NCBI GenBank assembly: GCA_029319145.1
Contig: CP119753.1
Location: 2,170,001 to 2,234,000 of the forward strand
DNA length: 64,000 nt
Origin: Microbacter sp. GSS18
GTDB taxonomy: Bacteria > Actinomycetota > Actinomycetes > Actinomycetales > Microbacteriaceae
Direction of reading: 5' to 3'
Below, piece after piece: positions 4,230 through 25,166 of the stretch (position 1 is the first letter of the stretch; every line of letters starts with the position of its first letter). A program made the translations under genes and the position numbers. Under the pieces are notes generated by a model. That model saw nothing but the letters and a program-made list of their open reading frames with translations, did no database searches and was not told the origin of the DNA.

Positions 4230-4330
4230 CCGCCCCCACAGACCCCGCCGGCCCGCCGGCGGTCGCACCACCCGCTCCACCCGCACCACCGCACCACCGC
4301 ACTGAGAACCCCGCACCCGAAAGGACCCCT

Positions 4331-5338
4331 ATGTTCTCTCGCACCACCCGACGTGCCCTGGTCGCCGTCTCCGCCGTCGCGGCGACGAGCCTCGCCCTCG
4401 CGGGCTGCGCCTCCTCGGACGCGACCCCTTCCGACGACACCGCCTCGGTCGAGCCCACGCCCATCACCTACCAGATGGGGTGGCTCCCCACGGTCGAGTG
4501 GGCGTCGAGCTGGATCGCCATCGACGAGGGCCTGTACGAGGACGCGGGCGTCGCGTTCGAGTACCTGCCCGGCGGCCCCAACGTCTCGGACGACACCGTC
4601 GTGGCCAGCGGCCAGGCCGATGTCGGCAGCGCGAGCGTCGACTCGGTCGCGGCGGCCGTCGAGGCCGGCGCCGACTTCAAGATCATCGCGGCGGCGTTCA
4701 AGAAGAGCCCGTTCAGCATCGTGAGCCTCGCGGAGACCCCGATCGAGACCCCCGAGGACATGATCGGCAAGAAGATCGGCGTGGCTGCTGCCAACCAGAG
4801 CCAGTTCGACCTGTTCCTCGAGATCAACGAGATCGACCCCGCCGATGTCGAGGTCGTTCCGGTGCAGTTCGACCCGTCGCCCGTCGCCAACGGCGAGGTC
4901 GACGGCCAGGTCGTCTACTCGGTCAACGAGCCGGGCCAGCTGAACGTCCAAGGCATCGACACGTACACGATGCTCTTCGCCGACTTCGGCTTCGAGGTGC
5001 TGACCGACGTCTACTACGTCACGCCCGACACGATCGCCGAGAAGGGCGAGGCCCTTGCCGCGTTCCTGTCGGCGACGAGCGACGGCTGGGACGCCCTGTT
5101 CGCCGACCCGCAGCTGGGCGTCGACCTGACGCTGGAGACCTACGGCGCCGACCTCGACCTCAACGGCGACCAGCAGCTGCTGCAGGTCGCCGCGATGCAG
5201 GAGCTCATGGGCTCCGAGCCGTACCTGATCATGACCGACGACGAGATGCAGGCCTCCGTCGACACGGTCAACCTGATGGGCTACGACTTCACCGTCGAGG
5301 ACCTGTTCGACACCTCGATCCAGGAGCTGATGGGCTGA
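4331..5338 (+). CDS. NitT/TauT-type ABC substrate-binding lipoprotein
   Basis: A 335-residue solute-binding protein of the NMT1/THI5/SsuA-like class. It starts with a signal peptide ending in a lipobox LALAGC with the lipidated cysteine at residue 26, followed by a Ser/Thr/Asp-rich linker and the domain beginning [17 protein letters not shown]. Relatives bind pyrimidines (HMP precursors), riboflavin, sulfonates, nitrate or aromatic acids, so the fold does not fix the ligand. The ATG at 4331 follows a GAAAGGA ribosome site. The 101-nt gap from the permease holds a GCCGGC-repeat hairpin that may raise expression of the binding protein over the permease. The stop overlaps the ATPase start (TGATG at 5336). 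Confidence 0.9.
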
Positions 5339-20361: not shown

Positions 20362-20910
20362 TCAGCCGATCGCGTTCAGCGAGTGGAAGCGTCGCTGGTG
20401 GTAGACCAGCGGCACGCGATCGTGGTCGACGCTCATGCCGTGCACCTGCAGGACCACGATCGTGTGGTCGCCGGCGGGTGTCGTGCTGACGATCTCGCAG
20501 TCGAGCCACATCGTCGCGTCGTCGATGAGGACCGCGCCGAGCTCGGTCTCGGTGATCGACAGGCCGGCGAAGCGGTCGCGGCTGCGCGAGGCGAGCTGCA
20601 TGCAGGCATCCGACTGGCTGTCGCCGAGGATGCTGACACCGATGCGCTCGGCGTCGCGCAGCACCGGCCACGTGCTGGAGGAGTTCTGCACCGAGAACAT
20701 CACCATCGGCGGGCTGTACGAGACGCCGGCCGAGAAGGACGTCGCGACCATGCCGACGGGACGGCCGTCGACGATAGCGCACAGCGCCGCGACACCGGAG
20801 GGGAAGCGTCCCATCGCACTGCGCACGTGCTCGGGTTCGGCGCTCATCTGGGCGCACTCTCGCACGGCCTCGGGCGTGGACGGGGACGGGGACGGGGACA
20901 GGATGGTCAT
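20362..20910 (-). CDS. Flavin reductase-like domain protein (two-component reductase)
   Basis: A 182-residue flavin reductase of the HpaC/ActVB type that uses NAD(P)H to reduce free FMN or FAD for a partner monooxygenase. Family segments are MGRFPSGVAALCAIVDGRPVGM, the ATSFSAGVSYSPPMVMFSV flavin-contact region, and DCEIVSTTPAGDHTIVV near the end. The start ATG at 20910 is favoured over upstream ATGs because GAAAGGGAG lies just before it and the family fold begins soon after. A short Ser/Pro repeat (SPSPSPS) precedes the domain. It is the first gene of the minus-strand operon with the riboflavin kinase. The upstream leader holds element A. Confidence 0.9.
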   Translation of the reverse strand: MTILSPSPSPSTPEAVRECAQMSAEPEHVRSAMGRFPSGVAALCAIVDGRPVGMVATSFSAGVSYSPPMVMFSVQNSSSTWPVLRDAERIGVSILGDSQSDACMQLASRSRDRFAGLSITETELGAVLIDDATMWLDCEIVSTTPAGDHTIVVLQVHGMSVDHDRVPLVYHQRRFHSLNAIG

Positions 20911-21021
20911 GTGCGGACTCCCTTTCGACAGCGGATGCTCGGATGGTGAGCATCGGGTCGGTAGGCGGCATGCAACGAAGCAGTCCGTCACCAGACTCGA
21001 TGCTTGCCCCCGGGGTCTTGT

Positions 21022-21066
21022 GTCCCGAGAGGGTCCACAGCGGCTCACGCTGCATCATCAGTGTGC
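21022..21066 (-). promoter_or_regulatory. Leader element A (conserved hairpin motif, copy for the minus operon)
   Basis: Read on the minus strand, this stretch matches element B at 21256-21300 on the plus strand from GCACACTGATG through TGCAGCGTGAGCCGCTGTGG and CTC. It can fold as CAGCG-loop(TGAGC)-CGCTG. The motif's ATG (minus start 21055) lies 145 nt upstream of the flavin reductase start. The frame from that ATG reads MQREPLWTL and stays open past the gene start in another frame, so RNA or DNA function is more likely than a simple leader peptide. Its presence as a pair is seen; its function is inference. Confidence 0.65.
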
Positions 21067-21255
21067 GAGACCGGGATTGCTGGTCGATCACACCGGTGTA
21101 AACGGTCGATTGCGCCGTTCCGCGGCCTCTGGAGCCGCGTGATCATGCGGCTTGCGGCGGCTCTACGCCGTGGGCGACACGATAAATCCGACGATGCCCC
21201 CGCGCCTGCACCCCGGCGTGGCCGTCCCCCTTCACACGCCCGAAACACGCGCCGG

Positions 21256-21300
21256 GCATACTGGGCATTGCAGCGTAAGCCGTTGTGGGCGCTCCGGGCC
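21256..21300 (+). promoter_or_regulatory. Leader element B (conserved hairpin motif, copy for the plus operon)
   Basis: This is the counterpart of element A in the same orientation relative to its gene: GCATACTGGGCATTG, then CAGCGTAAGCCGTTGTGG and CTC. The stem is kept as CAGCG-loop(TAAGC)-CGTTG; the C-to-T change turns a G-C pair into G-U, so pairing in RNA survives. It starts 154 nt before the FMN reductase start, with the motif's TTG 142 nt before it. CATACT at 21257-21262 resembles a -10 box, which would place a transcript start near the TTG. Confidence 0.65.
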
Positions 21301-21402
21301 AAAAGAACCTGGTGGCGTGTGGAGGAGTCGTGCGCTCCACAGCCCTGTGCGGTACGTGGTCTCACGACATCCTTCGTTCCCTGTCAATCGGTACGGATGT
21401 GA
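21268..21402 (+). CDS. Possible leader peptide upstream of the FMN reductase
   Basis: A 44-codon frame starting with TTG inside element B reads MQRKPLWALRAKRTWWRVEE and ends in a cysteine-containing, positively charged tail. Its stop is only 7 nt before the ATG of the FMN reductase, whose own ribosome site (GAGCAGCAG) is weak, so translation of the two could be coupled. The first residues resemble those of the frame at element A (MQREPLW against MQRKPLW). No known leader peptide comes to mind. This could equally be a by-product of the conserved RNA or DNA element. Confidence 0.35.
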   Translation: MQRKPLWALRAKRTWWRVEESCAPQPCAVRGLTTSFVPCQSVRM

Positions 21403-21409
21403 GCAGCAG

Positions 21410-21949
21410 ATGTCGTTGAAAGTCATGGTCGTGGTCGGCAACCCCAAGCCGGCATCCCGCACGCGCAAGGTCGCGGAGTTCCTCGTCGAGAAGCTCCTCA
21501 CGCCCGGCTCGTACGAACTCGAGGTCATCGATCTCGCCGAGTACACCGGCGAGATCTTCGCGTGGCCCTCCGAGAAGATGTCGGCGCTGAACGCCGCGGT
21601 CGCTGAGAGCGACCTCGTCGTCTTCGCGTCGCCGACCTACAAGGCGACCTACACCGGGCTTCTCAAGGCGTTCCTCGACCGGTATCCCGCGAACGGCCTG
21701 GCCGGGGTGACCGCGATCCCGGTGCACACCGGCGCGGACTTCACCCACGCCATGGGACCGACGTTCACCCTGTCTCCCCTGCTGGTGGAGCTGGGCGCGA
21801 CCGTCCCCGGCCGCGGGTTCTATCTGGCGCTCAGCCAGATGGACAAGCTCGACGAGGTCGTGGAGGCCGCCGCGGCGGAGTACACCGCGAACCTGGCCGG
21901 GCTCGCGAAGGTCGCCGGCGCCACGACACCTGCTCCCGCCCACGTCTGA
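21410..21949 (+). CDS. NAD(P)H-dependent FMN reductase (SsuE/MsuE-like)
   Basis: A 179-residue flavodoxin-fold reductase that supplies FMNH2 to LLM-type monooxygenases. The phosphate-binding loop GNPKPASRTRKVAEFL follows the first strand, and FASPTYKATYTGLLKAFLDR is the family's second flavin-contact motif. It is a different fold from the reductase at 20362, so the locus encodes two unrelated types of flavin reductase. The start ATG at 21410 is set by the beginning of the fold (LKVMVVVGNP). It is followed by the flavin reductase-domain gene, with an AAGGAGG site between them. Confidence 0.9.
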   Translation: MSLKVMVVVGNPKPASRTRKVAEFLVEKLLTPGSYELEVIDLAEYTGEIFAWPSEKMSALNAAVAESDLVVFASPTYKATYTGLLKAFLDRYPANGLAGVTAIPVHTGADFTHAMGPTFTLSPLLVELGATVPGRGFYLALSQMDKLDEVVEAAAAEYTANLAGLAKVAGATTPAPAHV

Positions 21950-23747: not shown

Positions 23748-25166
23748 ATGGCCGCTGCACAGCCGAACGACGCAACCCCCAAGACCCTGCATTTCGGCGT
23801 CTTCGAGGTCACCGCTCCGCAGGTGGGCGGAACGTACAGCTGGCCGCATCCGCGCAGCAGCAGCATCGACTTCCTGGACCCGCAGCACTGGATCCGCATC
23901 GCCCGCGTGCTCGAGGACGCGGGCTTCGACTTCCTGTTCTTCGCCGACGGCTACGGGTACCCGATGGTCAACGGCGACGTGGACCACGTGGCGGTCGAGA
24001 AGGGCATCAACTTCTCGGGCGTCGACCCGGCGTTCATCATCCCGGTGCTCGCACAGCACACCGACACTCTCGGCTTCGTCGTGACGCAGTCGACGGGCCT
24101 CGACCACCCCGCGCAGATGGCGCGACGCTTCTCGACTCTCGATCACCTCACGGACGGTCGCATCGGCTGGAACATCGTCACCGGCGCGTCGCAGAACGCC
24201 GTCGCCGACCTCTTCGGCCACGACGAGATGGTGTCGCACGACACCCGCTACGCGATGGCGGCGGAGTACGTCGAGCTCGCCTGCCGGTTCTGGGAGCACG
24301 CGTGGGACGACGACGCCCGCGTCGCCGATCGCGAGACCGGCCTCTATGCGCGGCGAGACGGCATCCATCGCGTCGTCTACGACGGCGAGCACTACCGATC
24401 GCGCGGATACTTCGGGGCACCGCCGTCGGCGCAGCGCAGCCCCGTGCTGTTCCAGGCCGGCACCTCGCCCGCGGGCCGCGCGTTCGCGGCCGCGAACGCG
24501 GAGTGCGTGTTCGTGCAGGCGACGACCCCGGGGCGCACGGCCGCCGCGGTGGCGGACATCCGCCGTCTCGCCGCCGACGCCGGGCGCGATCCGCGCGCGC
24601 TGAAGCTCATGGTCGGCCTCACCGTCTTCGTGGGCGAGACCGAGGAGCAGGCGCGCGCCTACGAAGCCGAGTTCGACGCCATGCAGACCGACGAGATCGT
24701 CGCGTCGCTGTACGCGGGCAATACGGGCATCGACCTGCTCACCCTCGACCCCGACCGCACGCTGCACCAGGTGCTCGACGCGGGCGGCCCGATCGGGCAG
24801 ATGGGCACGAGCAACATCGAGCGCTTCCTCGGCGAGGATGCCCCGACGGTGGGCGAGATCCTCGACCAGCTGCGCGGCCGCGGCACCCGCGGGTTCCGCG
24901 TCGTCGGCGACCCGAGGCAGGTCGCCGACGCCATCGAGGAGCTCATCGACCAGACCGATCTCGACGGGTTCCTCATCGAGCCGGTCTTCCCACCGAGCGA
25001 CCTCGAGGACTTCGGGCGCCTCGTCATGCCGATCCTGCGTGAGCGCGGGCGTCTGCGCGACGGCGTGCCGGGCAACACTCTGCGGGCTCGGCTCACCGAG
25101 CGGCGGGGCAACGACCGGCTCGGCCAACAGCACCCCGTCCTTACTGCCGGGGGCATCCAGGACTGA
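23748..25166 (+). CDS. LLM-class FMNH2-dependent monooxygenase, second paralogue
   Basis: A 472-residue monooxygenase of the NtaA/SnaA/DszA group, clearly paralogous to the one at 7688: both share EDAGFDFLFFAD.YGYP, the SLDHxTxGRIGWNIVTG region and VLFQAGTSxxGRAFAA. It would use FMNH2 from the nearby reductases to oxidise a nitrogen- or sulfur-containing compound. The ATG at 23748 is in frame with the conserved LHFGVFEVTAP start; an ATG at 23735 belongs to another frame. It lies next to the flavin reductase and riboflavin kinase genes, a sensible arrangement for an FMN-hungry enzyme. The substrate is unknown. Confidence 0.88.
   Translation: MAAAQPNDATPKTLHFGVFEVTAPQVGGTYSWPHPRSSSIDFLDPQHWIRIARVLEDAGFDFLFFADGYGYPMVNGDVDHVAVEKGINFSGVDPAFIIPVLAQHTDTLGFVVTQSTGLDHPAQMARRFSTLDHLTDGRIGWNIVTGASQNAVADLFGHDEMVSHDTRYAMAAEYVELACRFWEHAWDDDARVADRETGLYARRDGIHRVVYDGEHYRSRGYFGAPPSAQRSPVLFQAGTSPAGRAFAAANAECVFVQATTPGRTAAAVADIRRLAADAGRDPRALKLMVGLTVFVGETEEQARAYEAEFDAMQTDEIVASLYAGNTGIDLLTLDPDRTLHQVLDAGGPIGQMGTSNIERFLGEDAPTVGEILDQLRGRGTRGFRVVGDPRQVADAIEELIDQTDLDGFLIEPVFPPSDLEDFGRLVMPILRERGRLRDGVPGNTLRARLTERRGNDRLGQQHPVLTAGGIQD

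Follow-up and report, generated by a model that had tools for sequence, protein, structure and literature searches.

A conserved two-hairpin leader RNA upstream of flavin reductase genes in Actinobacteria and a few Alphaproteobacteria

Two divergent flavin operons in the window, the whole 64,000-nucleotide stretch of DNA analysed here, are each preceded by a copy of a small RNA that is found before flavin reductase genes in other bacteria as well. This leader RNA is new, and both its existence and its association with these genes are well supported. The two copies in the window, A and B, are almost certainly copies of a functional cis-regulatory RNA. The RNA consists of two hairpins at the likely start of mRNAs that encode flavin-reducing enzymes in various soil bacteria, and it probably controls those enzymes. 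We put the probability that it is an uncatalogued cis-regulatory leader RNA, most likely metabolite-sensing, which controls the translation of flavin reductase, at slightly below 60%.

Flavin reductases supply reduced flavin to luciferase-like monooxygenases, which degrade unusual carbon, nitrogen and sulphur compounds. To our knowledge, little is known about how cells match the supply of this reactive reduced flavin to demand. A dedicated leader RNA in several actinobacterial groups and a few Alphaproteobacteria provides a compact element of ~48 nt for ligand tests, and reductase operons of this type can be recognised by it. Should the ligand be a redox form of flavin, the element would act as an RNA sensor of the flavin redox state.

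The divergent flavin locus and its two copies of the element

A preliminary description of this region had reported one hairpin element before both divergent flavin genes. The repeat is real: the window contains exactly two copies of the 20-nt motif TGCAGCGTRAGCCGYTGTGG, one at 21035-21054 on the minus strand (A) and one at 21269-21288 on the plus strand (B), which lie back to back and are flanked by the divergent genes. When up to three mismatches to TGCAGCGTRAGCCGYTGTGG were allowed, shuffled sequences gave on average 0.05 matches and never two. In the 4.03-Mb single-contig genome the motif has two exact copies; two additional matches with three mismatches are within background, since a reversed control pattern matched 22 times. 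A covariance model likewise finds exactly two matches in the whole genome.

The earlier observation was right but understated, as the repeated hairpin is half of a two-hairpin RNA. Hairpin P1 of element A (GCAGCG-UGAGC-CGCUGU; 21037..21053, minus strand) scores 59.5 bits with covariance model R1, and that of element B (GCAGCG-UAAGC-CGUUGU; 21270..21286, plus strand) 64.4 bits. Its loop was correctly given as TRAGC, while the stem, previously CAGCG/CGYTG, actually has six base pairs, GCAGCG/CGYTGY. Outside the motif the leaders are indeed unlike in sequence, but not in structure: alignment and folding place a second hairpin, P2, after both copies, with the parts CUCUCGGG-ACACAAGAC-CCCGGGGG in A (21007..21031, minus strand) and the loop CCAAAAGAA in B (21289..21318, plus strand). 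Also correct are the distances to the start codons, 145 nt (start at 20910) and 142 nt (start at 21410). Equal spacing is not a rule, however, since the distance from P1 to the start codon ranges from about 109 to 227 nt (median 147) across 47 leaders.

Downstream of A, a domain search identifies a flavin reductase gene (PF01613; 20362..20910, minus strand). Behind it lies a gene with a riboflavin-kinase domain (PF01687; 19637..20347, minus strand, with a GTG start picked by eye). The score of this gene is under the RibF equivalog cut-offs, and genes related to it precede FMN reductase at loci L069, L071, L079 and L080. On the B side, domain searches find an NADPH-dependent FMN reductase gene of the SsuE/MsuE-like type (PF03358; 21410..21949, plus strand) and an HpaC/HsaB-like flavin reductase gene (PF01613; 21984..22508, plus strand). 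These are followed by a nucleotidyltransferase-like gene and then by the gene of an NtaA/DmoA-family FMN-dependent monooxygenase (23748..25166, plus strand; TIGR03860 above cut-off, start picked by eye), which likely uses the reduced flavin.

Structure and covariation of the RNA

In its general form, the RNA comprises P1, with 6 bp and the loop URAG[C/A], and then P2, with about 8 bp and usually a 9-nt loop, [C/A]CANAARA; the core of the model spans 48 positions. Alignment A1 (37 rows, 36 distinct) contains 37 of the 47 strong R1 matches and omits L021, L024, L025, L029, L031, L036, L047, L052, L054 and L066. Both sides change in 11 of its 14 pairs, and 93.0% of the cells are paired. For the 39 more diverse rows of alignment A3, which omits some near-duplicates as well as L083, because MAFFT had misaligned the latter in alignment A2, the corresponding values are 12 of 14 pairs and 91.3%. 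None of 500 shuffles of A1 or A3 scored as high on any of five measures, and sliding the partner columns by 1-3 positions lowered the pairing to 33-53%; as the structure was derived from the same sequences and many rows are close relatives, these controls overstate the significance, and the values are counts rather than probabilities. RNAalifold, unprompted, proposed 13 of the 14 pairs. Many members have an imperfect P2, with 37 cells of other kinds and 9 A-C cells among 312.

The loops are among the most conserved positions of the RNA. Distant copies keep them and have altered stems: P1 is GCAACG/CGUUGC in most copies, GCACCA/UGGUGC in Streptomyces and CGCCCUGG/CCGGGGCG at L083. By folding energy alone the window copies are ordinary (z -0.41 and -0.75 for 51 nt), and the case rests on the comparative evidence; the fold of the whole leader B is ordinary, too (z 0.12). 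When only the first 51 nt are folded, the minimum-energy structure contains P1 in 43 of 47 leaders; when whole leaders are folded, the number drops to 29 of 47. The Streptomyces core, folded in isolation, prefers a different hairpin. The predicted whole-leader folds that lack P1 could represent an alternative state or be a sign against P1.

The element had been proposed as a shared cis-regulator of flavin reductase synthesis in the form of an RNA, of a dyad in the DNA or of a short peptide frame. A shared regulator is supported and so is the RNA form, while the other two forms are disfavoured. Of the 234 cells in P1 pairs, 208 are Watson-Crick, 25 are G-U and one is A-C; 12 of the G-U cells fall in one pair, a clustering that is partly due to shared descent. 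A DNA dyad is expected to show A-C as readily as G-T, so the excess of G-U favours an RNA, and the dyad was rejected for P1. A repressor or activator that uses P1 as its operator is very unlikely for further reasons: the conserved P1 loop is asymmetric, the second hairpin also covaries, and the stems of L083 and Streptomyces differ although their loops are of the same kind. What speaks for an operator is that GCAACG-N5-CGTTGC forms an inverted repeat in the DNA directly downstream of the promoter, with other likely DNA sites, a GlnR-type box and a palindrome, close by. A translated leader peptide that regulates by attenuation is scarcely credible. Translated, the two window copies give MQR[E/K]PLW (MQREPLW and MQRKPLW), and their CTG/TTG change is synonymous, but only 9 of 34 homologues keep the start codon and 3 of 34 the Trp codon. 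The frame was therefore rejected and is regarded as a by-product of the RNA sequence. In addition, the position of P1 at the inferred transcript start leaves no room for a Shine-Dalgarno sequence of such a peptide. With a start-like codon in 9 of 34 homologues and no intrinsic terminator in the window leaders (20880-21430), the element does not belong to the leader-peptide attenuators.

Distribution and gene association

A lack of further copies before related genes in other genomes had been named as evidence against a shared regulator, and such copies exist. Among 80 loci with relatives of the FMN reductase, the best 80 of 308, strong copies are present in 44, with a second copy on the other strand at L018. 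Three loci have weaker, divergent copies at the correct place, L053 and L055 from Streptomyces and L076 from Nocardia. Their scores of 27.9-29.5 bits with R1 lie in the same range as those of rejected matches, and accepting them was a judgement call, made because they lie 130-150 nt before FMN reductase and keep the loops, with compensated stems in L053 and L055. The other 33 loci gave no accepted model match; 28 of these have a protein identity of at most 58%, the exceptions being L042, L043, L046, L059 and L060 (61-71%). Hence, the element follows the closer relatives of the FMN reductase. A hairpin scan and inspection by eye of these 33 loci revealed a clear copy in L083 and a possible one in L078; a regular-expression match in L042 at 12279 was dismissed as chance. 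In the alphaproteobacterial leaders L043, L046 and L167, two tandem P2-type hairpins (loops CCAAAANAC) replace P1 and P2.

The actinobacterial records with copies belong to Microbacterium, Herbiconiux, Subtercola, Leucobacter, Glaciihabitans, Cryobacterium, Nocardioides, Pseudonocardia, Kineosporia, Dactylosporangium, Occultella, Streptomyces and Nocardia. Among the Alphaproteobacteria, copies occur in a Hyphomicrobiales metagenome-assembled genome (MAG), which has two, in Pseudodonghicola and in Mesorhizobium. Of 34 FMN-reductase loci from two further orders, three have credible matches: L202 is new, and L173 and L203 are repeats of L076 and L062. The remaining 31 gave no credible match.

Searches of whole genomes with the RNA model, for which stricter filters were used in the large sets, test the association without recourse to the genes themselves. 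In the family (398 genomes, E of 1e-4 or better), the RNA model alone found 29 places in 26 genomes, and all 29 precede an FMN reductase or flavin reductase gene, albeit with a model trained on such leaders. At locus L134, which lies at the end of a contig, the beginning of the reading frame was identified by eye. In the class (394 genomes, E 0.01), 11 genomes match; eight strong places in five of them precede the same reductase genes, and seven weak places in the other six were judged chance. The class of the Hyphomicrobiales MAG (337 genomes) has accepted copies in that MAG only, and the order of Streptomyces (293 genomes) in the seed genome only, each with one weak match judged chance. In the order of Nocardioides (102 genomes), there are matches in the seed and in genome G1861. 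In the latter, the copy lies before genes for FMN reductase and flavin reductase, at what looks like the locus of G172.

Copies before a flavin reductase gene alone are A in the window, the minus-strand copy of L018, G326 (L139), L056 and the second site of G404 (L137). When the neighbouring genes of 64 loci with or without the element were clustered, a luciferase-like monooxygenase was found in 28 and an ABC-transporter ATPase in 18, and of the 33 gene clusters only the two reductases are widespread. The element is thus a conserved, covarying leader RNA tied to one pathway, in keeping with the functional description of riboswitches.

Several searches gave only chance matches or no information. 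The exact 20-nt pattern with two mismatches was uninformative in 98 relatives, where the reversed control matched more often, as the covariation of the stem hides relatives from a search of this kind. Weak model matches of 26-32 bits (L103-L108, L112, L162, L163) and 26-28 bits (L159-L161) were inspected and judged chance, as were, on their scores, 22 exact P1 matches in viral contigs (21.6-29.5 bits with R2).

On plasmids, 155 records match the FMN reductase, and eight of these were examined for the RNA. The Rhodococcus loci L166 and L168 have credible model matches (29.1 and 35.1 bits), and L167 has half a match, to the P2-type variant only; L164, L169, L170 and L171 have no copy. The third Rhodococcus locus, L165, shows a weak match of 19.6 bits (4299-4346), whose P1 lies 160 nt before an NtaA/DmoA monooxygenase gene, and a second copy before FMN reductase, identified by eye and scan. 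The former is the only copy noticed directly ahead of a monooxygenase gene. A blastn search of the plasmids with the leader gave one stray match. In the plasmid relatives L167, L169 and L171 the reductases adjoin Rid-family and alpha/beta-hydrolase genes, a neighbourhood that presumably resembles the Rut pathway for pyrimidine nitrogen. The RNA is absent from L169 and L171, and L167 has the P2-type variant only.

Probable transcript start, predicted downstream pairing and possible signal

The shared GCAYACT, which had been counted as part of the hairpin element, holds a -10-like hexamer of a putative promoter: CACACT in A (21060..21065, minus strand), 6 nt before P1, and CATACT in B (21257..21262, plus strand), 7 nt before P1. 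The best -10-like hexamer ends 5-8 nt upstream of P1 in 42 of 47 copies, a position where about a fifth would be expected by chance, as 18 positions were allowed and the weights were set by hand. P1 therefore probably opens the mRNA, and transcription starting at or within a few bases of P1 is supported but unproven. No pair in the window leaders passes a strict scan for sigma-70-type promoters.

Upstream of promoter B lies a GlnR-type box, TTCAC-acgccc-GAAAC (21231..21246, plus strand), with one mismatch to the consensus; the best site of A has three mismatches. The pattern GTNAC-N6-G[AT]AAC corresponds to the GlnR consensus and arrangement given in PMC10704036. With at most one mismatch it is present in 23 of 51 copies, compared with a mean of 0.82 and a maximum of 4 in 100 shuffles, for a pattern that was chosen after the sequences had been viewed. 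In 20 of 51 copies the best site begins 38-40 nt upstream of P1, and in 7 of 51 it begins 60-61 nt upstream, a phase of 22 nt. This suggests that the flavin reductase operons may be under nitrogen-limitation control through the GlnR-type box. The protein that binds there may be GlnR or MtrA, since MtrA competes with GlnR on nitrogen genes (PMC10704036). Upstream of promoter A an imperfect palindrome, CGATCACACCGGTGTAAACG (21085..21104), may be an operator or other regulator site, or a weak GlnR-type site.

Downstream of P2, a segment that often reads CGGCU is complementary to the loop and 3' strand of P1. CGGCT is present in 25 of 47 leaders, compared with 7.3 on average in shuffles. The duplex of P1 with this anti-P1 segment was compared with shuffles in 40 of the 47 leaders (L021, L025, L036, L052, L054, L055 and L066 were skipped, and leader A is outside the set). 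The mean z was -1.27, with 15 of 40 below -1.5 and the strongest cases in L057, L061 and L044; three control segments gave z values of -0.03 to 0.33. P1 and the anti-P1 helix would be mutually exclusive, which fits the 18 of 47 whole-leader folds that lack P1, and the anti-P1 pairing is a supported, if unproven, feature. In leader A, GCUCAC (20946..20951, minus strand), the complement of GUGAGC in P1, is a possible anti-P1 segment.

A second pairing is predicted in leaders of the A type, where GGACCCU, from the linker and the P2 5' strand, could form a helix with AGGGAGUCC in the Shine-Dalgarno region; in A itself, the complement of the GGACCCU between P1 and P2 is GGGAGUCC (20915..20922, minus strand). 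The free fold beats the fold with enforced P1 and P2 by 5.5 (A), 4.8 (L101) and 0.3 (L018) kcal/mol, and it opens P1 in A and L101. In the 40 leaders, the Shine-Dalgarno accessibility is slightly below that of shuffles (0.33 compared with 0.40; lower in 27 of 40, mean z -0.50). A proposed hairpin at the Shine-Dalgarno region covaries weakly at best (alignment A4), as between 20 and 102 of 500 shuffles reached its values, depending on which of the five measures is taken, and RNAalifold proposes no pairs for this alignment. Leader B has no anti-P1 signal (z -0.30) and does not hide its Shine-Dalgarno sequence (0.35 compared with 0.35). Since the covariation is weak and leader B backs neither feature, we infer translational control rather than observe it, and the signal may be a small molecule, either a form of flavin or a substrate of the two-component monooxygenases.

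In the mechanism we propose, two small hairpins with conserved loops and freely varying stems would open the mRNA and would together form a metabolite-sensing domain, a riboswitch, that governs the translation of the flavin reductase genes. While the domain is folded, segments such as the P1-P2 linker, the 5' strand of P2 or the 3' half of P1 would be unavailable for downstream pairing; once it unfolds, the same segments could pair with the anti-P1 segment or with the Shine-Dalgarno region. A small-molecule riboswitch is the most likely form, at somewhat better than even odds, and a protein-bound leader is its main rival. Tentatively, and with distinctly less confidence, we suggest a new riboswitch class made of two tiny tandem hairpins at the 5' end, which would respond to a flavin state that escapes the classic FMN riboswitch, such as reduced FMN, or else to a monooxygenase substrate that contains nitrogen. 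Under nitrogen control of the GlnR type, it would adjust how much reduced flavin the two-component monooxygenases receive.

A protein that binds both hairpin loops, be it one of the flavin reductases in an autoregulatory manner or an RNA-binding regulator acting in trans, is a serious contender, albeit clearly less probable than a riboswitch. Dimeric RNA-binding proteins bind to tandem hairpins of this sort, in which the loops are conserved and the stems free, as in ANTAR targets; some copies have two similar hairpins of the P2 type (L043, L046, L167), the genes that regularly adjoin the RNA are the reductases themselves, and loops of 5 and 9 nt would suit a protein, too. On the other hand, ANTAR hexaloops are absent, and besides the two reductases none of the ten annotated neighbourhood clusters is an RNA-binding protein, 12 of the 33 clusters being annotated and 21 not. 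We regard it as improbable that the element serves solely to set mRNA stability or as a small-RNA target, with hairpins that shield the 5' end and sense nothing. 5' hairpins do stabilise mRNAs, and the element is located at the inferred transcript start. However, stabilisers do not need conserved loops, which are here among the most conserved positions, and a confinement to one gene type, with 29 of 29 family matches before the same kinds of genes, would be unexpected.

Among known systems, ANTAR-protein targets (such as the nasF and eut leaders) likewise have two tandem hairpins in nitrogen-linked leaders. Both of their loops are hexaloops, with A in position 1 and G in position 4, whereas the element has one loop of 5 nt and one that usually has 9 nt, and in the window leaders it is not followed by a terminator. 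The guanidine-II riboswitch (mini-ykkC) shares the plan of two small tandem leader hairpins with conserved loops, which are ACGR there and URAG[CA] and usually [CA]CANAARA here, and the element has no Rfam match. By the loop sizes and the loop sequences generally ascribed to them, respectively, the element is neither an ANTAR target nor a guanidine-II RNA. With Rfam 15, no family reaches its gathering cut-off in the window or in 12 homologous loci; other Rfam scans, among them one of 20900-21430 up to E 10, gave only sub-threshold matches. Many motifs of the 224-RNA study are reportedly in Rfam. Among the open-licence papers listed, titles and abstract openings contained no report of such an RNA. 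The closest likeness in kind is to narrowly distributed, structured orphan leader RNAs that are ligandless so far (PMC2864571, PMC8632094, PMC6429828); in the main texts of these papers the words 'flavin' and 'monooxygenase' are absent, and 'FMN' and 'reductase' appear in the reference lists only. As a cis-regulatory leader RNA the element is of a known kind, and its architecture is a member of no family tested.

Like the FMN riboswitch (RFN element, RF00050), it is a leader RNA tied to flavin metabolism, but the RF00050 model has 138 positions compared with a core of 48 here. The claim that neither leader contains a canonical FMN riboswitch holds, as Rfam gave no match there: RF00050 has no gathering-level match in the window, is absent from the six matches up to E 10 in 20900-21430 and is not found in the 12 homologous loci. 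The genome does carry a canonical FMN riboswitch elsewhere, at G000:C1:1993047-1993206 (L228), with 69.5 bits, above the cut-off.
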